From NCBI RefSeq assembly GCF_019393635.1, contig NC_057867.1, positions 51,739,143-51,803,142 of the forward strand: a stretch of 64,000 nt of DNA, in the 5' to 3' direction. The stretch comes from Dromiciops gliroides. Its lineage: Eukaryota > Chordata > Mammalia > Microbiotheria > Microbiotheriidae. Numbering within the stretch: position 1 is the stretch's first letter; the number at the start of each line of letters is the position of its first letter. This document shows positions 4,841 through 61,577 of the stretch, one piece after another. The notes under the pieces are model-generated. The model made no database searches and was not told the DNA's origin. It was given only the letters and a program-made list of their open reading frames with translations. The position numbers and the translations under genes are program-made.

Positions 4841-10864
<6,024 letters not shown>

Positions 10865-36570: not shown

Positions 36571-36892
36571 TAGCTAGGAGTGGTGGCACATGCCTGCAAT
36601 CCCAGCTGAAAGGGAAGTTAAGGCTAGTGGATCTCTTCAGCCTAGGAGTTCTGAGCTGTAATGGGCTAAGCCAATCCAGAATCTGCATTGCCTGGCATCA
36701 AGACGGCAAACCCCCAGGAATGGGGGAAGACCTCAGTTTAGCTGGGATCCTGGGGACTCACCAGGTTGCCTAAGAAGGAGCCCAGGTCAGAAACAGAACA
36801 GGCAAAAATGTCTGTGCCAATTAATTTATTAAGATCAGTCAGTGATTAGCCCCTGCACTCCCGGTCTGGGCAAGATGGGGAGACCTGGTCTT
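36571..36892 (+). pseudogene. 7SL (SRP) RNA retropseudogene, full length
   Basis: Follows the 300-nt 7SL RNA from end to end. Visible are the 5' Alu domain (GTGGTGGCACATGCCTGCAA then TCCCAGCT), the CCTAGGAGTTCTGAGCTGTA segment, the S domain (CACCAGGTTGCCTAAGAAGG, GCCCAGGTCAGAAACAG, AACAGGCAAAA) and the 3' arm (AGCCCCTGCACTCCCGG, GTCTGGGCAAGATGGGGAGA). The end is followed by TTAAAAAAG beyond a SINE that split it. It has many substitutions, so it is a dead copy rather than an active SRP RNA gene. Since the S domain is present it is not an Alu-like SINE. Confidence 0.88.
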
Positions 36893-37035
36893 TTTTTTTT
36901 GCAGGGCAACAAGGGTTAAGTGACTTGCCCAGGGTCACACAGTTAGTAAGCATCAAGTGTCTGAGGCTGGATTTGAACTCAGTTCCTCCTGAATCCAAGG
37001 CCAGTGCTTTATCCACTGCACCACCTAGCTACCCT
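36890..37035 (-). mobile_element. WSINE1-like SINE in the 7SL pseudogene
   Basis: Target GAGACCTGGTCT / GAGACCTAGTCT, that is the very 3' end of the 7SL copy. Confidence 0.92.
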
Positions 37036-46640: not shown

Positions 46641-47288
46641 GGGAATCTCTACACACCCCCTCCCGAAAGTCCGGTAGGGGTAAGAGAGAACTTCCTGGAA
46701 GGCAAAAGGCATCGTGGGCAGGGGGAGGAGGAGGGGGAGGGGAGAGGGGGGAAGAAGCAATGCTTTGTGCCCCCCTCCCCCACTTCAGTGCCCGAAATAA
46801 AAATGGCGCCACGTGCCAGGCGGAGGGCACGCTCAGGAGCGCGCGGGCCATTGTGATGTCGGGGCCCCGCCCCTCTCCTGCCCTTCTGGGTTCTAGGGAG
46901 CGCCGAGGCGCGCACCAGCGGAGGCTCGAGCTCGCGGACAGGCAAGGCGGCGAGCGCGCGAGGGAGGGAGCTCGCGCGCCCCCTCCTTCCCTCGCTCGCT
47001 CGCTCGCTCGGGCACACCCCCTCTCACCTCGCCCCGCCCCGCCCCTCCGCGGGCACTTGTACACTTCCACACACTTCCTCACACTTCCACACACACCCAC
47101 ACACCCACACCCACGCACGTACCGCGCGCGCGCCCCGCCTCTTTCCCTAGACTCTCCGGCACTCGAGCCAGGCGCCCCGGGACCCCTCCTCTTGGCTGCC
47201 TTCTCCCTTCCCCCTCCCTCCCCAGCCTTTTGCCCCCTCCTCAATCTCCCCCCCCCCCACCCCGGCCCGGGGTGATCGAGCCCCGAAC

Positions 47289-47474
47289 ATGAGCACACCC
47301 GGTAACCACGGGCGCCGCCGCCTCCGCCGCGCTCCCTCCGGGATCTGGCTGCGGCGGCTGCTGCTGCTGCTGCTGCTCGCCGGGGCGGCCCCTGGGGGCT
47401 CCCGGGCTTTCTACCTGCCCGGCTTGGCTCCCGTCAGCTTCTGCGAGGAGGGCAAGGAGACCTCCAACTGCAAG
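47289..47474 (+). CDS. TM9SF2-like exon 1 (signal peptide)
   Basis: ATG with A at -3. Arg-rich start, then WLRRLLLLLLLAGAAPGG and the mature start FYLPGLAPVSFCEEGKETSN. Donor AAG|GTGAGC, phase 0. A (CTG)n run encodes the leucines. No upstream in-frame stop for at least 30 nt, so an earlier start is not excluded. Confidence 0.92.
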
Positions 47475-50400
47475 GTGAGCTCGACGGCCGGAGCCGAGGC
47501 CGGGGTGGGCTGCGCGCGGGATCGGACGGCCCTGCGCGGGACGGGGCGGGGCGGGGCGGGGCGGGGCGGGAGGGGACAGGACGGGACCGGACGGGACCCG
47601 ACGGGAGGGGACGGGACAGGACCGATCGGGGCCGGACGGGACCGGATAGGAGGGGCAGGGCGGCCCCGGACGGCACCCTGCGGGGTGGCAGGGAGGGACT
47701 GGAGCGGAGCGGACCGCACTGCAGGGGGTGGCATGGGCCGAGGCGACGCTGGACGGCATCGTGAGGGAGGAGACGGGCACGGACGGCACCACACTTCACG
47801 AAATGGACAAGAGGGCACTACCCAGGGTGGGAACTGACAGGACTGGACTGGACAGCGGTTTAGCCCCGCCTGGCAGTCCTCACTTGGGAAAGCTTGCTCC
47901 CCTCGAACCTGTTGGGGGAAATGCGGGCAGGTACTCTTCACCTGGCCGATCTAGAGCTCTCCTTTTCTGGCCAGAGCCTTCTCCCTGTGCAAACACGCCG
48001 TGCCGCCCATTCCCCCCCCCATCCTCCCGGAATTGCCTGTGCAAACAGTGGCACTTCCCTCTGAGCCTCGGCTGAGAAATCTGTCTGCAAACAGTTTTCC
48101 TTGCCCTCCCCTCCTCCAGTAACTCCACGAAAGCCCGGTGCCCTGTCCAGTTCTACCCGGCTCATGGGACCACTCCAGTCCCTCCTAGCTGACAAAGCCC
48201 ATCTCTCTCTTCATCAGTCACTTTGCAAACAAACAAACAAACAAAACCCCCAATGATTAAAACCCAGAGCTGACTCTGTGTGTCCTTCTAGAAGCATCAT
48301 CAATTATTTATTGAGTGAACATCCTGTGAGGCCCATATAGCATAAAGGGATGGCTGAAATGGAGTAATTTTTTCCCTCTTCTGTTTCCTTATTTCTGACA
48401 CCAAAGAAACCTCTCTATTAGGGAAAATGGCCTCTTTAACCATCCTGCTGCAATATCAGGAGTGGCACTGCTGATAAAGTTCACATTTGGAGGTCTCCTA
48501 GATACACACTGCAATCCTCTCCTCCCACCCCCCCTTCTTCCCCCTTTTTAGGCTTCACCTTGTAACCTTGGGAATCCACTCCAGCCTTGGGTTGTGATTG
48601 AAGTTTTTGATTTGGGCACCCTGGCTGCTAACTTCTTATGCCATTAGGAAGGCTAGGGGTACCACATTTTAAATTCGAGGTTCCCTCTAGGAGGTTCTGG
48701 TGCCTTAAGGTGGTACAGGTGGCAGAAATCTAAAATTATGGTCAAAAGGGCTTGGGTTCCAATGTCATTTCTGCTACTTACTGTTTGGGTGACCTTGGAC
48801 AAGTCCTTTTCCTCTGGGCCTCAATTGATGGGCATTTATTGAGTATTTGCTCTGTGTCAGGCACAGTTCCAGGCACTGGGGGTACAAAGGCAGTATTAAA
48901 CTGGCTCTGCTGTCAAGGAATTTACATTATGTAAGGGGAAGCAGGGGGAGTAGGTGACTGTTTCAGTATTTATTGTCTTTGGATCCCTAGTGTATACACA
49001 TAGACACGCGTATATATGCACACATACATCTGGGTTCTGGCACTGGCTGGTTGGATACCTAGAGGTGTGGCTCTTACTGTTTTCAGGGTTTGAATCAAGA
49101 GTAAGGTTATAGGTGGCTATCCTCCTAACACTAGCTCACAGGTTCCCACTGGTGGGCTTCCCTTTAAAAAATCAGCCAGTAGACTCAATTCTTTAGCATT
49201 AGTCAAGTGTGTGTGTGTGTGGGGGAGGACAACTAGGTGGTAAAGTGGATAGAATGCAGGACCTGGAGTCAAGAAGACCTGAGTTCAAATCCAGCCTCAG
49301 GTACTTACTAGCTGTGTGACCCAGGGCAAGTCACTTGACTCTATTTGTTTCAGTTTCCTTATCTGTAAAAATGAGCTGGAGAAGGAAATGGCAAACCCCT
49401 GAAGAATCTCTGCCCAACAGTTGCACACAACTGAACAAGTGGCACAGTAAGAACAATAGTTATACTCTTCTACAATATCAAGTGAAGGGGGAGGAGGGGA
49501 GACACTTCAGTCAACATTTATTAAGCACTCTGTATGTACCAGGCACTGTGTTAAGCTCTGGGAGTACAAATGTAAGCACAAAGACAATCCCTGCCCAGAA
49601 GGAGTTTATATTCTAGTGGGGGGAGCTAAAAAGCAGTTTAAAGCAGTTGTGGGGGACAGGGTGCTGAGAGGAGTGCAGAGGCCAGAGAGGAGTGAAGGAG
49701 GAAGCCTTTAGTAAGGACTGAGTTCTGGGCAGAGCTCATCAGTTGGAAAGAGGGGGCCACTGGAGCAGGGAGATCTTTCCAAGTGGGAAGGCCCCAAGAT
49801 AGAGGCACGCCCCCCAGCCTGTTGAGGTGTGGTGTTGAGGTGTGGCTAAAGGGCAGTGGTAAGGAGGCACATGGCTATGTGGCAACTGCAGGGCCTCAGG
49901 ATCTCTCTCTTTTCTTTTTTTTCCAAAGCGACCTTACAAATTTTGTGACATGGTATGGGTGATGCAGGTCACTGCTGTGTAGCTGGCTAGTTCCTTTTCT
50001 CAGTGGGTGATTTCTCAGTGGGCTGCTAAGCTGGCTCCTCACTAGGCTCAGATGCTGCTGTTGGGCACCAGTGCAGCATCGCTGCTGACCCCGCCCTGGG
50101 CATGCTGTGTAATGGAGTAGTGGCTGGAGTGTTGGAGTACTAGTATGCTTTTAAAGCAAGGGCCATAACCCTTAGCCTAGACTTAGCAGAAGACTTTCTT
50201 TTTTGCCCTTAAAGCGTTTCAGGCCAGAGGTAGGAGGTGTCTAGTAGCTCCTATTCCACGGTTTTTTTCTGGGTCAGAGCTAGATCCCCTCATTCAGGGA
50301 TTCTCCCTGGTTTAATTTGATGTGTAACCAGTAGCATTTCCCAGCCTGCTTTTGGGCTCTTCAGTTGACTGTTGCTAGAGACAAAGGTAACCATGCAGTC

Positions 50401-53400
50401 TGTACCTTGCAGGCAAATTCCTTGTCTTGCTGGGTTCTTCATCTGTAGTGGAGAGCTATTCTAGCCTCTAAGCCCTTTGTTAGGTGTGGAATACTTATTT
50501 TGCTTCTGAAATCCTTTCCCTTTACATTACTAAAGAATTTCGACTCTCCCAAACTGAAACTTTGGCCGATATCCAAAGGGGGCACAACTTTGCATATACA
50601 AAGAAGCTTTTTTGGTGGGAGAAGAAGGGGGTAAGTGGGCCTTAGAAGTTGAGGGGAATGTCCCCAGTTCATGGGACTAAGTCCAAAGATGGAGAGGTGA
50701 TCAGGGTTTCCTGCTCATTATCCAGCATTAGCGACTAATGCTTTCTAAATGTAGCAGACATTATCTCCATATTAAAAGTTGAAAGCAAAACCCAGTGCTC
50801 TACTAGTGTGTCTTCTATCTCCTTACCTTACCATGTTTCAATGAATCCCACTGGAAAGATTTCTAAGTCAGAGGTGAGGATTGAGTGCATTCCTGGCATG
50901 GTACATTATAGTTGACTGGATCTCAGATGCAATGCAAGTTCAGGGAGTTCAAAAGCTGCCATGGTCTCCCTCACATCTTCTCAGATGCTGGGCATATTCC
51001 TCTGGGCCTGGAGAGTTTATGTTTCCTGGCCAGAAGTCAAACTAAAGCAGTGACTGATGTGGAAAAGACCCGCTCATGGAGCAAGTGATATTTGAGCTGA
51101 CCTTGGAAGGAAGCTAGAAGTTCTAAGTTGGAGTGAGGAGGAAGTGCATTTGAGACATGGGGTCGAAATGTCTTATGTGAGGGATAGTTTGATGTCTGAA
51201 ACAATAGGTCAGCACCAGGTGGTGAAGAGCTTCGACAAACAGAAGCTTCATATGAGACTTTAAGCAATAGGGAGCCATGGGAGATGTGTGTGGACCACTG
51301 TTTTGTTCATCTGTGAAAAGGTTAAAAAATTCTCTAAGTCTCTTTTATTCACCCATTCCCTGGACCCACGGGGGAGCCTGCCAAGTAGTCCAGAGAGAAG
51401 ATGAGTTTGTCTGAAGCTGGAATCCAGGTTGGGGCCTTAAGATTCCTGTTGGTCTTTGCTTGTAGGTTCTTGGACCTTTCTGAAAATGCGTAGCAGTTCC
51501 CTAGGCCAGGATGTTGTTGTTTTTGCGGTTCAGTCATTCGGTCTTGTCTGACTCATCCATGGAGTTTTCTTAGCAAAGGTACTAGAGTAGTTTGCCATTT
51601 CCTTCCTGTGTGTCCCCATTTTTACAGATGAGGAAACTGAGGAAAACAGGGTGAGGTGACTTGCCCAGGTTCACATGGCAGTGTCAGAGGCTAGATTTGA
51701 ACTTGGCTCTTTTTGACTCCAGGTCTGGTGCCCTATTTACTATGCCACCTCACTGCTCCAGGTCAGGATGTTAGTTGAGCCCAAAGCTGGGGAGAAGTTG
51801 CAGAAGTCTTGTGCCAGCTGAGCAAATGCAGAGAGCTCAGTGGAGCAGCTTCCCCAGCAGGGAGCAGGGCATGGGTATCACGAGAAGGGAAAAGACATTG
51901 GGGTCTTGCAGCTCTGTTGGCGTGAGTTGCCTTGGCCATGTGTTCCCTGTGTATGTGCGCACCTCTCTGCTAGTGTTCATTCTTCCCACTGTGTTTTTGT
52001 AGATTTATGGAGAGGATGTCTTGTTACTGCTATTAATGCAATGCTGTTTTAATAAATGCCTTTGCTTTGAGTGGTGTCAAACAGGTGCTTATTGAAGGTG
52101 ACCCCATCACTGGGGGCTCGTGAGCTACAGTTTTAGCAGTACAGACACAAGTACTGCCACAAAGCTTCATCAGACTAAATAGTATTCAGTATTTACTTCT
52201 TTTCAGTCCAGCTTTTTTTTTTTTATGATCTTGTACTTTTTTTTTTTTAGTGAGGCAATTGGGGTTAAGTGACTTGCCCAGGGTCATACAGCTAGTAAGT
52301 GTTAACCATCTGAGGCCAGATTTGAACTCAGGTACTCCTGACTCCAAGGCCGGTGCTCTATCCACTGTGCCACCTAGCCGCCCCCTAGTCCAGCTTATTT
52401 TTATACAAAGCTTTGCTCATCAGAACCTCCCCTAGAACCTGCCACGTGCCCCTATGAATCTCAAAGGCCTCACACAGAAGTCAGTAGAGAAGTACCATGA
52501 TAGGGAGAAGCAGGCTGCAAAGTGTATCTAGGGAGGAACTTCTAAGAACAGCTGGAAAAGGTGTGATAAGAAGAGGAGGTGAGGGACCAGGGTAGAAGCT
52601 GGACAGCCTCTGAAGGACAAGAGATAGGAAGGAAGGAAGGGCCCCCAGTGTATTGGGTGGAGCCTCTAGAGGGAGTTTATGGAGGACATGGCCAAGAGCT
52701 GCCCAAGATGGGCTGTCATCTGCACTGTTGAAGGGAACATGCACCTCAAGGAGAGCAGGGCTGCATTTGAGTGCTCAGGCATTTCCCCACATCCACACAT
52801 ATTTTTTTTGTCAGTATATAGACATTTTCTCTTTTCCGTTAGGTGCTGCTACTGGCTAGGAAGCATTTCCTTAATTTTCTTACGTCCATAATACCTGGTA
52901 GAAGGCTGAGCACTGAGGCGACAAGACCACAGTAACTGGCAGGAGACCTGTGCAGAAGGGCTACTTGTGCCCACTTACTGCTAAGCAGCTGTGTGCTTAA
53001 GAGAACCCTCAGTTTCCCTTTTTGGATCTGCCATGGCTTCGTCATCTATAAAATGAGGGAGTTGGCCTAAATGGTTGCTAAGATTCCTCTCAGCATTGCT
53101 GTGCAATGATTTCGTGTTGAAGTGGAGAAACAATTGGATGGTGCAGTGGGTAGATCGCTGAACCTGGAGTCAGGGAGACCTGGGTTCAAATCCAGCCTCA
53201 CACTTACTGGCTGTGTTGACCTGGGCAAATCTCTTGCACCTCTAGCTCCCTCAGTTTTCTCAACTATAAACTGGGGATAATAGTAGCACCTCCGTCCCAG
53301 GGTTGTTGTGAGGATCCAATGAGATAATCATTGTAAGGCCCAGAGCACAGTGCCTGGCACATAGTAGGCCCTATAGAAATGGTAGCTATTAGGGGCAGCT

Positions 53401-56400
53401 AGGTGGCGCAGTGGATAAAGCACCGGCCCTGGATTCAGGAGTACCTGAGTTCAAATCCGGCCTCAGACACTTACTAGCTGTGTGACCCTGGGCAAGTCAC
53501 TTAACCCCCATTGCCCTGCAAAAAAAAAAAAAAGAAAGAAATGGTAGCTATTAGCTAGTAGTAGTATTATTATTACAGCCAGTCTCAGACACTTACTAGC
53601 TTGTGTGACCCTGGGAAAATCACTTAACCTCTCTGAGATTCAGCTTCTTCATCTGTCGAATGAAGGGCTAAAATGTAAAATGAGACTGGATGGCTTCAGA
53701 GGTCCCTTCTAACTCTGCATCGATAATCTCGCACCATTCGTCGGTCCTTCCTAGAATACTCACATACACCAAACCAGTTGTCGGGCCCTCCCATGGTGGT
53801 ATTGCTTTGTCTTTGTTTCTCTCCCTCTCTCACCCCCAACCATATGGTAGATTGTAAACTAGGTAGGGTCAGTCTGATCTTCTGAATAACACCTCACAGA
53901 CTGTGGATTTTCTTTTTTTTTCTTAAAATTTTTTTTTAAATTATTTTTTTCAGACTGTGCATTTTCAATTCTCTTTACAGAAAGACTGGGGGGTAAGGAG
54001 GGGAAGGATGGGAGGCAGCCATTTCAGTGCTAAGCAGAGGGATGCATTCGGCTCTCTCTGCTGTTGACAGATTGGAGTTTGGCTGCTTGCAATTGACAAA
54101 GAAGTCCCCTATTGCTCATCTTTCCCTAAAAGCTGTTCATTGGCTATATAGTATGCCATTTCTACTACTGTATTTTTATTTAAAGACCCCCCAACTCTTT
54201 TTCCTTCCTGTGGTATTAAGGAGAAAATTCCTCTGCAGTCAGGGAAGGTTTGTCGTGTTGTTACTTCATTAGCACAGACTTATGCTGGGCTTTAAGAAAA
54301 ATCATGTGCCACTGTCCAGATGTGTGAAGTCGATAATGTAAAGGGTGATTTATTTGGGTCCGAAGAAGACCCTTTGCTTTACAAAAGAATTTATCATTGA
54401 ATTCTTTTGCAAGTAGATAGCTTCCCTAGTGCATGAAAAAGAGAATGCTTTCTGCTTTGCTTACTTTGGCTGTTTTTGAGTAGCGGTGCCCCTGTGCATG
54501 TGTTACCACCCCTCTTAAGTCATCTAAACCTCCCTGTTCCTTTTGTGTAGGGCTATAAGGGGTTTCAAATTAAAATGCTAGACAGTAGATTCTACTAGGT
54601 GAGGTGAACATTTCTGTTATTTCACAGAGTGAGCGGATCTCTCTCTGTTGCCTACCTTGCTGATGCTGTGTTCAGCAGGCTAAGAGCCTCCCCTAGTGCC
54701 TCATTGAGGTTTGGAGGTGATCTGACTTCCTCAGCTCTTTCCATGGCGAATGAGAGATGTGACCACACAGGCCTCTGGGACAGTCAGAGTGAGTACCTAG
54801 GGCTGGAGCCCTCAGCTGAGGAGGTGCATGGCCCAGGACAGGAGCCCATGGAGGGCGTGGCTGCTGCAGGTGGATGGCCTTTGCAGCTACAGTGGTTCTC
54901 AGAGACCATCTTGTTAGAGCCCCCCATTCTGTGGCCAGGGAGGGAATTCAGGCCCTTGCTCCAAACCAATTTATTTGTACTTTAGAGATAGAAGCTTAAG
55001 CCCTCCAAAGTCATAGAATCTATTGCCGCTGCTATCACTGGCATTTCTATAGTTCAACAAAACTGTGAGGGAAGTGGCATTATTATCCCCATTTTACAGA
55101 TGGGGAAACCGAGGCTCAGAAGGTTAAGAGACTTGCCCAGGGTCACACAACTAATAAATATCTCAGTGGGGATTAGAACCTGGGTCTCCCTGACCCTTAA
55201 GTCTAGCACTCTCTCCACTAGGCCAGAGGTATCAGATCAATGACCCATGGGATGCATGCAGCCACAGCATTGCCAAATATGACCCAAATGATATTGAAAT
55301 ATAACTGGGAAATATTTAACAAAATAAATTTTCAAAAATAATAAGACATAGATAACATATTTTGAAACTAAATCAGCTTATAGCCTATAAGGAATCCTTA
55401 TATACATTTTTTTTGGGGGGGTAAATAGGGGTTAAGTGACTTGTCCATGGTCATACAGCTAGTGTCAAGTATCTGAGGCAGGATTTGAACTCAGATCCTC
55501 CAGACATCAGGGCCAGTGCTCTATCCACTATGCCACCTAGTTTCCCCCCTTATATAGTTTAGTAGCTCCCACTTCTGTTTGTGGTAGACCCCATTGTACT
55601 AGGCCATGCTGCTTCAGGAAACCATGCCCTCTATAATATCCCAGATAAGGGCTTCTTAACCTCTGCTTGAAGACCTCCAGTCACTGGGAAGCTGTTGCCT
55701 CCCAATGCATTGCCTCTACTTTGGGATAGTTTGAATTGCTAGGAAGCTTTCCTCATGTCACATTGAAAGCCCCCTCTTTGAATTTCTACCTGTCATTCCT
55801 GGTTTTGCCCTTAGAAGCCAATACATATATCTTCCCTATGGCTGCCCTGCCAGGACTGGAAGGTAGCTCTTCTGTTCTCCCTTTTTTCTTCCCATGAGCC
55901 TCAATACAGTTTCGTCCAGAAAATGAGGCTGAGAGATGAGGGCTTGGCTAACATCAACTGTCATTTGCAGACCTGAGTGTCTAACTGTAGGTTCTTTCTG
56001 GCACCCCAGCATTGTAATCCCCAGTCACAATCCAGAGAAGCTTGGCTACTTGGCTTCTTAGCCCATAGTCGATTAGAAGCCACATCAGGATTGAAGGGGA
56101 AGGGGCAAGGGGGAAGCTGGGGAGGGCAGGACAAGACTGGAGTCAGTCACCATGACAGCAGAGTGAAATTATGGGCAGCAGCAAGAGAAACTTGACAAGT
56201 GACCATAGCTTCCAGAAGGTACAGCTCTCAGGGGCTATTTAATGGAAGAACAAATAAGCCCCACAGAGCATACTGTCTTAGGACACACACACACACACAC
56301 ACACACCCCCCCTCACTCAGTGGTAATCAGGGTTCTGAATCACAAGAAAAATTCAATCATTTTGTTCTAAAATAAATGTCAAGTAGAGATGAAAGTGGAA

Positions 56401-59400
56401 AGACTGGTGTTTGGGAAAGGCAGTGCAGTGTGGTGGCTAGCCACCTAGTGTCAGACAGCAGAGGACAGGATTAAGTCTCACCTCTGACACTTTTTTTTTA
56501 TTTTTATTTTTTTTTAGTGAGGCAATTGGGGTTAAGTGACTTGCCCAGGGTCACACAGCTAGTAAGTGTTAAGTTTCTGAGGCCAGATTTGAACTCAGGT
56601 ACTCCTGACTCCAAGCCGGTGCTCTATCCACTGTGCCATCTAGCTGCCCCACCTCTGACACTTTCTTGATGGGTGACTGACCCTCAGCTAGTTACTTACC
56701 CTCTGAGGGTCCTAAGCAACTCTCTCGAAGATGTGGACAACCTCCTTTGGTAGGGGAAGCTTTCTCACCTAGGAAGACCCTTTATCAATGAAATCCCAGG
56801 TCCACCCTCTAACCCTACTGGCCCAAATGACTAAAACATGGTGGCACACTGCAGTTATCTCGGTTAATTCCCAGATAACTGGGAAATTGACTTATCTCAA
56901 ATACCTCATTGCTCACAATGCTGGATAAATGAAGCTTCTCTGTACAGAGCTGTCAATTTATGATAGCAATAGGCCTGATTGCCCTGAATTTAATTCAGTA
57001 TATTCGTCTCCTTTCCATTATCAATAAACATTTTTTCATTTTTCAGCCTTTAATAGAGCTCTTTGTGAACAGACTGGATTCGGTGGAATCAGTTTTGCCT
57101 TATGAATATGATGCGTAAGTATGGCGTGAATGATCTGTGCAGTATTGCTCAGCATGTGAAAATGTGCCTTATCTCTTATCAGGGCATCCAAATGACAGTG
57201 CTTCTTCATCCGAATGTAATGGCAACCTTGGAACAAAGGAAGTCGTGAGGGCAATCTCAAGAGCCTGCACAAACCAAGACACAAATGCTTGGCCAGGATT
57301 TCTAGGAAGTGACTTTCTATAGTTTCCCTTTCTCAGGAGGGTTCGTTATAAATCGGTTTATAAACATTTGACTATTTTTCGAACAACTTTGGAAATTGTT
57401 GATGTTTGTTTCTGAAATTTCATTATTTTCCTCAAATCTTTTTCAAAAGAGCACCGTACCTCACAGCACCTAATTTTTTGGCATATAAAAATGCTTAGTC
57501 TGTTGCTCATCAGCAGCAAGATTATATGTGATAGGGAATTTGGGAGTAATAGTAAATGTGTCTTAGAAAAAGAATGATTTAGGGCAGAGATGTCATGATG
57601 ACACTCAGAGTGAGCAGAGCCAGGTAAAAATGGAACTGAAAAATACTTGATAAAATAAAGAAAGAATCCAATAGAACACGGATAATGTTAATCTGTGGAT
57701 TTCTGAATCAGTCTGAAGCTGCAGGAATTCTTATTTATGGTTTTGAGGCCCAGATTCTCTTTGACTTTGACACCACTGACTCTGAACCCCTCTTGTACTG
57801 CCTTGTTCAGTCCTTTCAGTCGTGTCCGACTCTTCATGATCCCGTTTGGGGTTTTCCTGGCATAGATACTGGAGTGGTTTGCCATTTCCTGCTTCAGGTC
57901 ATTTGACAGATGAGGAAACTGAGACCGAGTCAGGTGACTTGCCCAGGGTCACACAGCTAGTAAGTGTCTGAGACTGGATTTGAACTCAGGAAGATGAGTC
58001 CTCCTGACTCCAAGGCTGGCACTCTATCCACTGCAGTGTCACCTAACTGCCCTGGTATTACTTTACTCCTAATTATGTTTTTTTTTTTTTTGGTGGGGCA
58101 ATGAGGGTTAAGTGACTTGCCCAGGGTCACACAGCTAGTAAGTGTCAAGTGACTGAGGCCGGATTTGAACTCAGGTCCTCCTGAATCCAGGGCTGGTGCT
58201 TTATCCACTGCGCCACCTAGCTTCCCTGCCTTAATTATGTTTTAAAAAATCAAGTCATACTATGTGATGGTCGCCATCTAGGTTAGGTGGCTTCTTCATA
58301 TGGGCTATTCAGAGTGCTACAGTTGCACTTACTGGCATGTTAGACATAAGCACATCTAATTTACAGTTTTCTTAGATCTCTTTGTGGTTGATAGAGGAGG
58401 GGGAGTGGTGATGACATTTGGTTCTTTTATCGTTTGGGACTGATATTTATCATTTCTCAATGTCATCCATAGAAATTAGTATGCATTTTTTTTTAGTGAG
58501 GCAGTTGGGGTTAAGTGACTTGCCCAGGGTCACACAGCTAGTAAGTATTAAGTGTCTGAGGCCGGATTTGAACTCAGGTACTCCTGACTCCAGGGCCGGT
58601 GCTCTATCCACTGCGCCACCTAGCCGCCCCAGAAATTAGTATGCATTTTAAACTTTCTTGTGGATTTGTCTTTTGGGCACTGATTTCAAAGCTTTTCTTG
58701 GGAAAAGAGAGAGGCTGACTGGAATGCTGGGGCTATAGAGCTGGCCTTGGAGTTAAGCAGACCTGGGTTCTAGTCCCACCTCTGACACATCCTAGCTGTG
58801 TGACCCTGGACAATACCCTTGATGTCTCAGTGCCCCCGGTAACTCTCTGAGAAGTTGGTGGCCTGCATTGCTGGAGGGAATTTCCTCATCTTTTTTCCAG
58901 AGTTGGGCCAAAAAAAAAAAAAAGGAAAAACCAAAAACAGAAAGCACTGGCAGGTACTTCAATATTTGTTGCTTTATTAACTGGGAATAGGATGATTATA
59001 CTGGTGCTGCAGTGCCTTTGGTTGATATTGGAATTGTTCTAAAACTAGGTTTTAATCTTGTACCACATTTGTGGAGCTGTCAAATGGAGACATTATCAAG
59101 GATAAAGACGTAAGGCGTATTAATGAGATCTTTGTAGGTCTTTGAAATTGGCAAAACGTGTCATTCCTGTAATTGGTCCCCCTGAATGCTATGATCCAAA
59201 CTCTTTTAAAGTCAATCTCGTTTCTGGGGGGCCGGAAGGGAAGGGTCTTCCATACTGCATGGCAGCCCATGTCCCATAGTACTATAAGTACTTTGTTATT
59301 TCCATATAAGATACAGTTTTGGAGATTGGAGAAACAGTTAATGAAGAGCCTTTAGGGTAATTGTGTCCATTTCAGGGCAGAAATTTTGAGCAATTAGGCT

Positions 59401-61577
59401 TTCCACCAGCAATGGAGCTATTAACCCTATTGGAGAGAGTCTAGCTGAATTGAAAGGAGAATGTATCTTAGAGGTAGATTTCTTTCTTGATTTTATATCT
59501 TAGTGAAACTCCTATTTTTCAGCTTTGATTTTTGTCAAGACTCAGAAGAAAAAAGGCCTTCTGAAAATCTTGGCCAAGTGCTGTTTGGAGAGAGAATAGC
59601 ATCATCGCCGTACAAGGTTATCTACCCCATCCTTTGAATCTCATTTGAAAGATGAAGCCTCTCAAAGCCACCTCCTCCTGCCCGACAGCACAAAGTCTCC
59701 ATTCACTTTCAAAGGAGCTACAATCCCATGTTGTCAATGTCATTTAAAGAAAGCCATTGAATTATTGGCTGTTAGTGATACAGCCGGCAGTGCTTTTCCT
59801 TCTCTCTAAACTGTTAATCTTACCTTGGGCAGGATGGTATGAGGAAGCGCAATTTGGCTCTTGCCTTCTTGCAGATGAGATGGGGAGGGTGGGGGTGGTG
59901 CTGAATGGGTGTTTAGATGGTCACTTAGGATCTTAGGACACTTACTAGCTGTGTGACCTTGGGCAAGTCACTTAACTCCATTTGCCTTAAACATCTGAGG
60001 CCATCTCCAGTCATCCTGATGTAGATCTTGCCACTGGACCCAGATGGCTCTGGAGGAGAGAGTGAGGTGGGTGACCTTGCACAGCCCTCCCTTACTTAAA
60101 TCCAATTCATTGCAAGTTTTGACATCATTTCCTGATGTCATGGTCCTCTTCAAGACCAAAGGACAAACAACAACAACAGGATTACTGCAGGATGTGGGGG
60201 GCGGGGGTGGTGGGATACTATATGACCTTGAAGGGCCTTTCCAGTGCTAAGATCCTCCAATTTTAAAGTTGTACACACAGAGACTGTCAAACACTAACAT
60301 TGTCCCAACCGTCAAATGGGCCGTCCTCTCAGTGGACCCAAGTTTGACAGTACTGCTTGGCCAAGCCACAGAAGAAAGCTAGCCAGAGGTAGCTGGACTG
60401 CAAGTGTGTCATACAAAGAGGATATCATTGCTCGTGTTGCAGTTAGTGCAATTTCAGAATGCAGACTGCCTCCACCTAATGTGGTTAATTAGTTCCACAA
60501 GAATGCTGTTTATGCCTATGCAGTAAACAATATGGCACCAATAACCAAAGTGATGCTTGGCTCTCTTGCTGCTCTGGGGTTCCAGTGCCCTGTCCGAGCA
60601 AGTGCGTGCTGCGGCTTCTTCATTTTGCACCTGGGTAGCTGAGCAGGACAGCATCGGGGCAGGGTTGTAGTGTCCTATTACCAGGAGGTGAAGTGGCCCT
60701 AATGGATTGTCCCTTCCTTTAGCCTTGCTCAGTGTCTAGGTGGTTAATGCACTGGATTGGCTACATGCCCCTGTGGTGCCACCCTTATTATCTGTAATAA
60801 TGGAGCCATATTATACAACCCAAGGGCAGCAGTATAAGTGGCCCCAAGTGACTTTTTTATCCCACATAATTAAAGAATGCGAATTATTGGGTTTACTATG
60901 GAGACCATGATAGAGACTTAATACATTGGATAGATATGGAAGGGATGTGTATCCATTTAGATTCTGCTTTAAAATGGAAAGGAGAAATAGTTTGCTGGAA
61001 AATGCCCCCCATCACCCCTCTATAACATAGTATTAGCTTTTTGATATTCAGTTTATAAAATGTAGGAAGATCTGACAAATTGCTTGAATAATCTTTTCTT
61101 TTTTTTTTTGTGGAGAAGTTTACTTTTAAGCGTGAAGAAACATGTGTGAAAGCTTGTGTAAAATCTTATGATCCCAGAAACGAGAGTGAAAAGAAGAAGC
61201 TGGCCTTTTTGAAGAAAGGAATGCAGCTGAACTACCAACACCACTGGTGCGTTGGTGCCTGTGAGAAGGTGGTGGGCGTCGCCCAGCTTCTTGGGCCTAG
61301 GGTCACATTTACAGATGGCCTGACTCGTGAGACTGCAGCTGTTTTTTACAGCTGGATTTTCATGAAGTCAAATGAGAAATTCCTTCATTTCAGAGACACT
61401 TCAAAATGCTTGTTAATGTAACTTACTCCTTTCTTTTTTGCCCTTAGGATCATTGATAATATGCCGGTAACATGGTGCTATGAGGTGGAAGACAGACAAA
61501 AGTATTGTAATCCAGGATTTCCAGTGGGGTGCTTTGTTACTCCGAGTGGTAGAGTGAAAGATGCTTGTAACATTAAT
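47289..61577 (+). CDS. TM9SF2-like nonaspanin, N-terminal part (5 exons; gene runs off the window)
   Basis: Transmembrane 9 superfamily proteins sit in endosome and Golgi membranes and help sort membrane proteins and glycosylation enzymes (family knowledge). Joining 47289-47474, 57047-57114, 59523-59616, 61119-61246 and 61448-61577 gives 606 nt (202 codons) in one frame, all with GT/AG. Residues about 1-40 are a signal peptide with a run of leucines, cut before FYLPGLAPVSFC. Then comes the luminal domain: ELFVNRLDSVESVLPYEYDA, FDFCQDSEEKRPSENLGQVL, LNYQHHW and IIDNMPVTWCYEVED, and CNPGFPVGCF. Compared with human TM9SF2 as I recall it, these blocks align without large gaps but only roughly two thirds of residues agree in exons 4-5, too few for an orthologue. 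The nine membrane spans would lie in exons beyond 64,000. TM9SF4 is a poorer match. I give no symbol because it is probably a separate paralogue. Confidence 0.9.
47536..47760 (+). repeat. GGGAC/GGGGC tandem array at start of intron 1
   Basis: (GGGGC)n followed by GGGAC-type pentamers with drift (GGGACAGGACGGGACCGGAC). The strand is strongly G-rich with many G-triplets, which could form G-quadruplexes. Confidence 0.85.
47900..49225. other. Intron 1 of TM9SF2-like gene, first part
   Basis: Leaves the CpG island into ordinary sequence. MIR-like traces near 48,735-48,825 and an ancient repeat near 48,830-48,930; nothing else supported. Confidence 0.5.
49228..49440 (+). mobile_element. Long SINE with RTE-type tail
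   Basis: GACAACTAGGTGGTAAAGTG head; tail unit with ATGAGCTGGAGAAGGAAATG and GCAAACCCCTGAAGAATC. Confidence 0.85.
49505..49800 (+). repeat. Ancient dispersed repeat, family not named
   Basis: TCAACATTTATTAAGCACTC, ACCAGGCACTGTGTTAAGC and CAATCCCTGCCCAGAAGG, then a region with GAAGCCTTTAGTAAGGAC. Confidence 0.55.
49900..51030. other. Intron 1 of TM9SF2-like gene, no element seen
   Basis: Unique-looking sequence with no repeat, exon or RNA signal I can support. Confidence 0.5.
51040..51300 (+). repeat. Ancient dispersed repeat, family not named
   Basis: TTTGAGCTGACCTTGGAAGG, AACAATAGGTCAGCACCAGG and TTTAAGCAATAGGGAGCC; same family as 43.8 kb. Confidence 0.5.
51507..51759 (-). mobile_element. 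Long SINE with RTE-type tail
   Basis: Target AGGCCAGGATGTT / AGGTCAGGATGTT. Tail unit with GTTCAGTCATTCGGTCTTGT. Confidence 0.87.
52218..52383 (-). mobile_element. WSINE1-like SINE (ACTCCTGACTCC subfamily)
   Basis: Target AGTCCAGCTT on both sides. Two T-runs at its left end, split by ATGATCTTGTAC. Confidence 0.92.
53116..53390 (+). mobile_element. MIR/CORE-type SINE, near full length
   Basis: CAATTGGATGGTGCAGTGGG head, CTTACTGGCTGTGTTGACCT, GTTGTTGTGAGGATCCAATG, ending GCCTGGCACATAGTAGGCC. Confidence 0.8.
53392..53537 (+). mobile_element. WSINE1-like SINE
   Basis: Inserted at the end of the older SINE; target GAAATGGTAGCTATTAG, 17 nt and identical. Confidence 0.94.
53575..53740 (+). mobile_element. 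MIR-type SINE fragment
   Basis: CAGACACTTACTAGCTTGTG, TCTTCATCTGTCGAATG and CAGAGGTCCCTTCTAACTC. Confidence 0.65.
53745..55005. other. Intron 1 of TM9SF2-like gene, no element seen
   Basis: No repeat or exon I can support. An open frame at 54,629-54,985 has no family resemblance and lacks splice context. Confidence 0.45.
55010..55226 (-). mobile_element. MIR-type SINE
   Basis: CCCATTTTACAGATGGGGAA, AGAGACTTGCCCAGGGTCAC and TAGCACTCTCTCCACTAGGC. Confidence 0.75.
55226..55405 (-). mobile_element. hAT-type MITE, family A (partial)
   Basis: Starts CAGAGGTATCAGATC, the other terminal type of the copies at 21.4 and 28.4 kb, and has AAGACATAGATAACATATTT in its body. Confidence 0.6.
55408..55545 (-). 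mobile_element. WSINE1-like SINE, more diverged
   Basis: GGGGTTAAGTGACTTGTCCA to ATGCCACCTAGTTTCCCC. Body shortened (CTAGTGTCAAGTATC). Confidence 0.82.
55560..56480. other. Intron 1 of TM9SF2-like gene; (CA)n at 56,281-56,306
   Basis: One dinucleotide run (ACACACAC) and otherwise unique-looking sequence. Confidence 0.5.
56490..56650 (-). mobile_element. WSINE1-like SINE (ACTCCTGACTCC subfamily)
   Basis: Target CACCTCTGACACTTT on both sides. Confidence 0.93.
57047..57114 (+). CDS. TM9SF2-like exon 2
   Basis: Acceptor TTTTTCAG, encodes PLIELFVNRLDSVESVLPYE then YDA, donor ATGC|GTAAGT. Nearly identical in sequence to the same segment of human TM9SF2. It is short and lies 9.6 kb from exon 1. 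Confidence 0.93.
57800..58053 (-). mobile_element. Long SINE with RTE-type tail
   Basis: TTCAGTCGTGTCCGACTCTT, GTTTGCCATTTCCTGCTTC and GACAGATGAGGAAACTGAG, ending GTCACCTAACTGCC. Confidence 0.87.
58079..58226 (-). mobile_element. WSINE1-like SINE
   Basis: Target TAATTATGTTTT on both sides. Confidence 0.92.
58486..58630 (-). mobile_element. WSINE1-like SINE (ACTCCTGACTCC subfamily)
   Basis: Target GAAATTAGTATGCATTTT on both sides, 18 nt and identical. Confidence 0.94.
58712..58860 (+). mobile_element. Old MIR/CORE-type SINE
   Basis: TGGCCTTGGAGTTAAGCAGA, CCTAGCTGTGTGACCCTGG and a worn end. Confidence 0.65.
59523..59616 (+). CDS. TM9SF2-like exon 3
   Basis: Acceptor TATTTTTCAG, encodes FDFCQDSEEKRPSENLGQVL then FGERIASSPYK, donor AAG|GTTATC, a weak but valid site. 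Confidence 0.93.
59935..60180 (+). mobile_element. RTE-tailed SINE
   Basis: Body TTACTAGCTGTGTGACCTTG, then ATCCTGATGTAGATCTTGCC, ATTTCCTGATGTCATGG and the end AGGACAAACAACAACAAC. Confidence 0.78.
60185..61110. other. Intron 3 of TM9SF2-like gene, no element seen
   Basis: No repeat or RNA gene I can support up to the exon 4 acceptor tract. Confidence 0.5.
61119..61246 (+). CDS. TM9SF2-like exon 4
   Basis: Encodes FTFKREETCVKACVKSYDPR, then the charged NESEKKK stretch and LAFLKKGMQLNYQHHW. The acceptor is TGTGGAGAAG, where two AGs lie three bases apart; I chose the second because human TM9SF2 has no extra Lys there. Donor ACTG|GTGCGT, phase 2. Confidence 0.92.
61448..61577 (+). CDS. TM9SF2-like exon 5
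   Basis: Acceptor TTGCCCTTAG, encodes IIDNMPVTWCYEVEDRQKYC, then NPGFPVGCF and KDACNIN. Donor AAT|GTAAGT, phase 0. The next exon, expected to start near human SDFHERDTFYIF, is not found before 64,000. Confidence 0.93.

Follow-up and report, generated by a model that had tools for sequence, protein, structure and literature searches.

TM9SF5, a likely X-linked ohnologue of TM9SF2 in the marsupial Dromiciops gliroides, with relatives in several placental orders

Introduction

What is the TM9SF2-type gene that begins beside RBMX in the marsupial Dromiciops gliroides: TM9SF2 itself, a recent copy of it, or the survivor of a much older duplication? An earlier note, made from the letters of a 64,000-nucleotide stretch of contig NC_057867.1 (positions 51,739,143 to 51,803,142, forward strand; hereafter the window), had proposed an ohnologue that placental mammals lost. 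A 2019 paper on TM9SF2 and glycolipid biology (PMC6348303) counts four mammalian TM9SF genes, describes the C-terminal KxD/E signal as binding COPI, and reports that TM9SF2 knock-out cells are rescued by TM9SF1, 3 and 4. Literature searches returned, judged by title, nothing on mammalian gene history for TM9SF5, nothing on gene history for TM9SF2 with RBMX and nothing on vertebrate paralogues for nonaspanin phylogeny; TM9SF2 in marsupials led to a koala paper only, and no literature was found that joins the transmembrane 9 superfamily with the term ohnolog or names TM9SF2-like.

Taking all lines of evidence jointly, we are highly confident that the window holds the first five of the 17 exons of an intact marsupial TM9SF5, likely X-linked, and that this gene is an ancient ohnologue of TM9SF2 with a presumed TM9SF2-like role in the Golgi and endosomes.

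Results

The five in-frame TM9SF2-like exons described in the earlier note are all present (Table 1) and join into 202 codons with 0 stops. Its description of their splice sites as clean stands for the GT/AG ends and the compatible phases, and is a little generous for exon 3, whose donor (AAG/gttatc), like that of exon 12 outside the window (CGG/gttagt), looks weak, a judgement made by eye without a splice score. Traced beyond the window in the genome, the gene comprises 17 exons and a 669-aa frame with no internal stop; all 16 chosen introns are GT/AG, the exon-joining script having demanded GT or GC donors and AG acceptors. The promoter region around exon 1 has a GC content of 0.70-0.77 and an observed/expected CpG ratio of 0.70-1.08 in 200-base steps. 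The distance to RBMX, given previously as 35 kb, measures 36.5 kb from ATG to ATG, RBMX having been located with the human protein as the query. The chromosome that carries the gene is most likely the X of D. gliroides.

Table 1. Coordinates of features in the window, of the remaining TM9SF5 exons and of the two gene blocks compared (C7, the contig of the window; C3, the contig of TM9SF2)
Feature	Position	Strand	Remarks
RBMX coding exons (neighbouring gene)	4913..10813	-	eight tblastn pieces
SNORD61	10584-10651		between RBMX coding pieces
CpG-rich, GC-rich promoter region	46801..47800	.	spans exon 1; base composition
TM9SF5 exon 1	47289..47474	+	ATG, hydrophobic leader, AFYLPGLAPVSFC
TM9SF5 exon 2	57047..57114	+	
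TM9SF5 exon 3	59523..59616	+	donor gttatc, weak by eye
TM9SF5 exon 4	61119..61246	+	
TM9SF5 exon 5	61448..61577	+	
TM9SF5 exons 6-17	94088-133459 (window-based); C7:51833230-51872601	+	past the window
C3 block, glypican pair	148.7-152.4 Mb	+	
C3 block, TM9SF2	158.53-158.58 Mb	+	
C3 block, ZIC	159.129 Mb	-	
C3 block, ZIC	159.142 Mb	+	
C7 block, glypican pair	48.5-49.4 Mb	-	
C7 block, TM9SF5	51.79-51.87 Mb	+	
C7 block, ZIC	52.362 Mb	-	
C7 block, ZIC3	52.378 Mb	+	

The family assignment is clear from the Pfam EMP70 profile, which matches the 202-aa five-exon translation at E 1.4e-24 (87.1 bits, cut-off 27) and the full 669-aa protein at 718.3 bits over profile positions 1-516 of 517. A search of PDB chains with the 202-aa piece gave no match up to E 10. 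The full protein ends in LKVD and thus carries the KxD/E COPI motif. By hydropathy alone it has eight peaks above 1.5, the same number as the animal's own TM9SF2, in a family whose trait is nine spans.

That TM9SF2 lies elsewhere in the same genome, on contig C3, where 16 of 17 exons were recovered and exon 1 was not found. The earlier note was right to see the window gene as a second one of TM9SF2 type, and the sequence of that gene is intact. The two genes are members of one family with KVD tails, corresponding hydropathy peaks and nearly equal exon lengths: from exon 2 onward 15 of 16 agree and exon 6 differs by one codon, once the three intron bases (CAG) that open the modelled exon 2 on C3 are set aside. 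They differ in locus, each lying beside a different ZIC pair, and in sequence (80.4% identity over 607 aa), and dS for the paralogue pair is saturated.

The phylogeny separates the two genes. In a tree of 39 database matches plus the complete gene and the one on C3, built without lamprey or invertebrate sequences and excluding a Narcine ray (long branch) and TM9SF4 (end branch 5.16), TM9SF5 (30 sequences) and TM9SF2 (11 sequences) are split with support 100/99, and the window gene falls outside mammalian TM9SF2, as the earlier note had expected. Birds, reptiles, amphibians, ray-finned fish and a shark are found on the TM9SF5 side; three further sharks lie on the TM9SF2 side, and the presence of sharks on both sides places the duplication before the jawed vertebrates. 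Rooting by TM9SF4, in a tree of 40 matches with the same two genes, recovers the TM9SF2 side at 96/78 and leaves the remainder unresolved. The full protein joins koala and opossum at 100/99 in the 39-match tree, a grouping repeated in the 40-match tree. Marsupial TM9SF5 pairs with Sphenodon and not with placentals (83/89 in the 40-match tree, 90/90 in the 39-match tree), yet sister status of marsupial and placental TM9SF5 is not rejected (AU p 0.338, 39-match tree). For these analyses the placental TM9SF5 sequences were reduced from 13 to nine by dropping hare, loris, cat and meerkat (long branch, gaps or shorter run). A FastTree of 180 matches, to which TM9SF4 and the five-exon fragment had been added, placed this fragment among birds beside the partial sequence P0013. 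We set the placement aside, since several entries are incomplete or represent isoforms with skipped exons, and the fragment covers 30% of the columns. Eight alignment columns satisfied our rule for distinguishing TM9SF5 from TM9SF2, and none lies within the first 202 aa, so that the column test leaves the five exons alone undecided.

Could the window gene nevertheless be the true TM9SF2 of marsupials, relocated or evolving fast? The public names of the koala and opossum proteins (TM9SF2-like) and the degree of identity to TM9SF2 speak for this, but it is the C3 locus that groups with mammalian TM9SF2 (99/97, 39-match tree), shares 96.2% identity with bear TM9SF2 and shows the TM9SF5 state at 0 of the 8 diagnostic columns, against seven in the window gene, which has the TM9SF2 state at one; we consider such an identity very improbable. 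We give equally little credence to a recent or retroposed marsupial duplicate or pseudogene of TM9SF2. The weak-looking exon 3 donor would fit such a copy; against it stand the retention of all introns, the matching exon lengths, the intact frame, orthologues reaching from birds to a shark, and a bird orthologue that is 91.0% identical over 646 aa.

What, then, is the reach of TM9SF5? The koala and opossum predictions, deposited as 'TM9SF2-like', are its orthologues, 90% and 86% identical, respectively, to the 202-aa translation over its full length, and 95.4% and 92.2% (564 aa) to the full protein. Their isoform X2 models lack exons 13 and 14, both of which are intact in D. gliroides. These are the only marsupials named among the matches listed, in which each cluster at 90% identity appears under a single name; for the same reason the lack of any monotreme, lamprey, invertebrate, human or mouse name among those matches is weak evidence. 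TM9SF5 is not a previously unseen kind of gene: records of Amia and Lepisosteus already bear the name 'transmembrane 9 superfamily protein member 5', fall in the same clade and share the C-terminal KVD (Amia, 83.7% identity over 650 aa), with the N-terminus longer in the Dromiciops gene. Naming among fish is uneven, some members of the clade (Clupea, Megalops) being called TM9SF2 or TM9SF2-like.

The proposal that placental mammals lost the gene did not survive. Among the matches listed, 36 carry placental names; at most of the eight columns, 24 of these carry the TM9SF5 state and 12 the TM9SF2 state, the rule for which had drawn on three of the 12 placental TM9SF2 sequences (P0037, P0051, P0097) and on none of the 24. 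In a tree of 57 of the 180 matches, selected by hand, with the window fragment and TM9SF4, 13 selected placental sequences form one clade on the TM9SF5 side with support 100. By tree and columns, the 'TM9SF2-like' proteins of horse, rhino, carnivores, bat, ruminants, galago, loris, tarsier and hare fall with TM9SF5. An ohnologue lost in placentals as a group, the version of the earlier note, is accordingly wrong and keeps practically no probability. What speaks in its favour is patchiness: no rodent or anthropoid occurs among the 24 TM9SF5 matches listed, and all four rodent-named matches listed are TM9SF2. From this patchy list of names, TM9SF5 may have been lost in some placental lines.

Where it persists in placentals, TM9SF5 evolves faster than TM9SF2 (81.2% identity between horse and dingo, against 97.0% between horse and bear TM9SF2), and eight of the 24 placental records, one of them partial, lack the KxD/E tail, some possibly through faulty gene models. 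Marsupials, birds and reptiles keep TM9SF5 well conserved, and the placental copies change faster.

Gene order bears on how the pair arose. FGF13/FGF14 and other pairs are known. In D. gliroides both contigs carry a glypican pair, a TM9SF gene and a divergent ZIC pair, which supports the suggestion that TM9SF2 and the window gene arose with the ZIC2/ZIC3 block. C3 and C7 share the order and orientation TM9SF(+), ZIC(-), ZIC(+), the glypican pair lies to the same side in both, and the end of the TM9SF gene lies about 550 kb (C3) or 489 kb (C7) from the first ZIC match. The glypican pairs are opposite in orientation and about 6.2 Mb (C3) and 2.4 Mb (C7) from TM9SF; the blocks are thus not fully collinear. 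This difference, the scope of the comparison (three gene groups in one genome) and a third ZIC block (C3:49.8 Mb) with no EMP70 match nearby would suit an ancient but local, segmental duplication outside any whole-genome duplication. Given the shared order, orientation and spacing, we regard that origin as unlikely, if somewhat less so than the other alternatives. The matching surroundings of TM9SF2 and TM9SF5 support a pair of ohnologues and are what a whole-genome duplication in early vertebrates would be expected to leave.

Discussion

The cellular role of TM9SF5 is carried over here, by analogy, from TM9SF2. As in TM9SF2, the protein would cross an endomembrane several times and have its N-terminal domain in the lumen, and its C-terminal KVD, a COPI-binding KxD/E signal, would retain it in the Golgi/endosome system. 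There it may help to position Golgi glycosyltransferases, and it probably serves as a backup for TM9SF2 or has specialised in part of that protein's work.

We somewhat favour a wider picture: on the marsupial X, the block from RBMX to ZIC3 would have sheltered copies from whole-genome duplication that are missing from the mammalian gene counts of the literature consulted. These copies would be TM9SF5 and a ZIC gene with five fingers, lying 0.49 Mb beyond it and divergent from ZIC3, which would be zic6. In placentals the block would have been broken up, with ZIC6 gone and TM9SF5 freed to evolve fast and lost in several lines, perhaps including human and mouse.

TM9SF5 adds a fifth mammalian TM9SF gene, closest to TM9SF2. 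It occurs in marsupials and in several orders of placentals, among them those of dogs, horses and ruminants. Its presence in some species means that TM9SF2 knock-out results may differ between cells of different species through redundancy. It also offers an ohnologue that appears to be strongly constrained in one group of mammals and fast-changing in another.

A separate observation concerns the neighbouring genes on C7: a ZIC-type gene stands there head to head with ZIC3 and occupies the place of zic6, which has reportedly been lost from tetrapods.

A complete second TM9SF2-type gene beside RBMX

All five in-frame TM9SF2-like exons that the earlier note had read beside RBMX are present (see table), and when joined they give 202 stop-free codons whose translation matches Pfam EMP70. 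We searched the Dromiciops assembly (3.30 Gb, 17 contigs), in which the window is C7:51739143-51803142. Contig C7 (85.16 Mb) is most likely the X chromosome, because RBMX and ZIC3 sit there. The remaining exons were sought by tblastn with koala and bird proteins in the next 70 kb, and assembled with a script that demanded a GT or GC donor and an AG acceptor for each intron. The resulting gene, TM9SF5, has 17 exons encoding 669 aa, a TGA stop and zero internal stops; the chosen introns are GT/AG in 16/16 cases. The intron after exon 5 spans 32.5 kb, and therefore just five exons lie inside the window. The protein covers profile positions 1-516 of the 517 of EMP70 (718.3 bits) and terminates in KVD. 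Judged from its sequence, the gene is real and intact. The region around exon 1 (46801-47800; GC 0.70-0.77, CpG observed/expected 0.70-1.08) resembles a housekeeping-type promoter in base composition.

Features of the window (window positions) and of the ZIC-type neighbour (C7 positions)
Feature	Position	Strand	Remark
TM9SF5 exon 1	47289-47474	+	ends and phases correct
TM9SF5 exon 2	57047-57114	+	ends and phases correct
TM9SF5 exon 3	59523-59616	+	ends and phases correct
TM9SF5 exon 4	61119-61246	+	ends and phases correct
TM9SF5 exon 5	61448-61577	+	ends and phases correct
RBMX	10813-4913	-	neighbour gene, strand opposite to TM9SF5
SNORD61	10584-10651	-	71.2 bits; between RBMX coding pieces
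ZIC-type gene, intact exon 1	C7:52362416-52361654	-	0.49 Mb beyond TM9SF5
ZIC-type gene, exon 2	C7:52358897-52357615	-	end set at first stop

TM9SF5 is distinct from TM9SF2

EMP70 matches number 30 in the Dromiciops genome and fall at five gene loci, of which C2 has three and C3 one; TM9SF5 itself is the fifth. We considered whether the window gene could be TM9SF2, and rejected this: over 607 aa the C3 gene (158.53-158.58 Mb) shares 96.2% of its residues with bear TM9SF2 and 94.2% with Rhea TM9SF2; identity between the window gene and the C3 gene is 80.4%. A tblastn-based exon search at the C3 locus located 16/17 exons and did not find exon 1. From exon 2 onward, 15/16 exon lengths are equal in the two genes and exon 6 is off by one codon, after correction of the C3 exon 2 start, which had taken in three intron bases (CAG).

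A protein search scored on the 202 aa (best 120 of 985 matches, TM9SF5 and TM9SF2 mixed) is headed by koala (90%) and opossum (86%), both 'TM9SF2-like isoform X2', followed by birds, reptiles, fish, amphibians, sharks and placentals; the name 'TM9SF protein member 5' is attached there to some records from ray-finned fish. Exons 13 and 14, intact in Dromiciops, are missing from both of these marsupial isoform X2 records (P0001, P0002). Among the best 120 of 5327 matches to the full 669 aa, the top eleven are 86-92% identical and, where named, are birds and reptiles.

In a careful tree (41 rows, 669 columns, without far outgroup), a TM9SF5 side of 30 rows, with the window gene and one shark, separates from a TM9SF2 side of 11 rows, with three sharks and the Dromiciops C3 gene (branch supports 100/99). 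A clade of the window gene with koala and opossum has support 100/99. Eight diagnostic columns, set by a strict TM9SF5/TM9SF2 separation rule without therian TM9SF5 rows, agree: the TM9SF5 state occurs at 7/8 in the window gene (1/8 TM9SF2 state) and at 0/8 in the C3 gene. Relative to the mammalian literature examined, TM9SF5 is an addition to a known family; public predictions already include it.

Paired gene blocks and a ZIC-type neighbour

The earlier note had also proposed an ohnologue in the ZIC2/ZIC3 block and, within what was tested, this is correct. The labels ZIC1/4, ZIC2/5 and ZIC3 and the glypican numbers were assigned by reading position and sequence, not by a tool. A zf_ZIC search gave six places (C3:49.83/49.85, C3:159.129(-)/159.142(+), C7:52.362(-)/52.378(+)), and a glypican search 33 matches that form a pair at C3:148.7-152.4 (+), another at C7:48.5-49.4 (-) and two single loci on C4. 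TM9SF2 on C3 and TM9SF5 on C7 each have a glypican pair on one side and a divergent ZIC pair on the other, and both have the same orientation relative to the ZIC pair, whose first match lies ~550 kb (TM9SF2) or ~489 kb (TM9SF5) away. The two glypican pairs lie on opposite strands and at unequal distances (~6.2 Mb on C3 versus ~2.4 Mb on C7); therefore some rearrangement occurred. The whole-genome search found no EMP70 match near the third ZIC block (C3:49.83/49.85). Gene blocks and tree together support TM9SF2 and TM9SF5 as an ohnologue pair. TM9SF2 also stands beside CLYBL in human gene order. Koala TM9SF2 adjoins CLYBL, according to an excerpt of PMC7910482.

The ZIC-type gene, placed divergently to ZIC3, reads as 681 aa to the first stop, assuming no further intron, with five zinc fingers by eye. 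Pfam recognizes a ZIC-type first finger (36.3 bits, cut-off 26.3) plus other fingers in a 387-aa part. Fingers 1-3 are 57-59% identical to the five other Dromiciops ZIC genes, and fingers 4-5 match a ZIC probe at 73%. In a comparison with solved structures, ZNF568 gives the best score for the finger region (207.7 bits, six stretches) and ZIC3 the next (194.7 bits, one stretch). Excerpts of PMC7403390 describe zic6 as lost from tetrapods, a deletion/inversion in the mammalian X precursor having removed it and turned ZIC3 round; an excerpt of PMC6771876 has it kept in teleosts only. The gene occupies the zic6 position and is, by that position, a candidate zic6.

TM9SF5 in placentals

The supposed loss in placentals does not stand. 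Among the best 120 of 3349 matches to a Przewalski-horse 'TM9SF2-like' query are sea otter, dingo, fox, panda, Hipposideros bat, cat, meerkat, galago, loris, tarsier, deer, buffalo and hare. We classified by diagnostic columns all 36 matches visibly named placental in the best-120 listings of the 202-aa, horse and full-protein queries: 24/36 of those listed have mostly TM9SF5 states and 12/36 mostly TM9SF2 states, and TM9SF5 is therefore present in placentals. The rodent-named matches listed are TM9SF2 (4/4), and no anthropoid names occur among the matches listed for the three queries. This pattern fits absence of TM9SF5 from human and mouse, short of proof.

A quick tree joins 13 selected placental rows in a single clade (100), sister to marsupials (92). 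In the careful tree marsupial TM9SF5 instead joins Sphenodon (90/90), and a single therian TM9SF5 clade is not rejected there (p-AU 0.338).

By sequence comparison, TM9SF5 evolves faster in placentals than in marsupials, and faster than TM9SF2: its placental stem is 0.33 changes per column, against 0.081 for marsupials (careful tree), and horse and dingo TM9SF5 are 81.2% identical, against 97.0% for horse and bear TM9SF2. The window gene still shares 91.0% with a bird orthologue. Hare, ruminant and galago TM9SF5 form long branches.

Possible function

Excerpts of PMC6348303 describe a KxD/E tail by which TM9SF2 binds COPI, and disturbed Gb3 synthase placement upon TM9SF2 loss, an effect that another study cited there did not see; toxin binding could be restored by supplying TM9SF1, 3 or 4 individually. 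By analogy, TM9SF5, as a close KVD-bearing paralogue, would most likely work in the compartment of TM9SF2 on similar cargo. The KxD/E ending is absent in 8/24 placental TM9SF5 records among the matches listed (one of the eight is partial), and some of these cases may come from faulty gene models. The Hipposideros bat and cat records (P0124, P0125) lack KVD and end in ISIN, which may reflect an alternative last exon common to both or the same error in both gene models.

Elsewhere in the window, a Metazoa_SRP Rfam match at 36573-36894 (+; 81 bits, gathering 70) is probably a 7SL copy, and the short interspersed repeats are of a kind that we take to resemble common marsupial SINEs.
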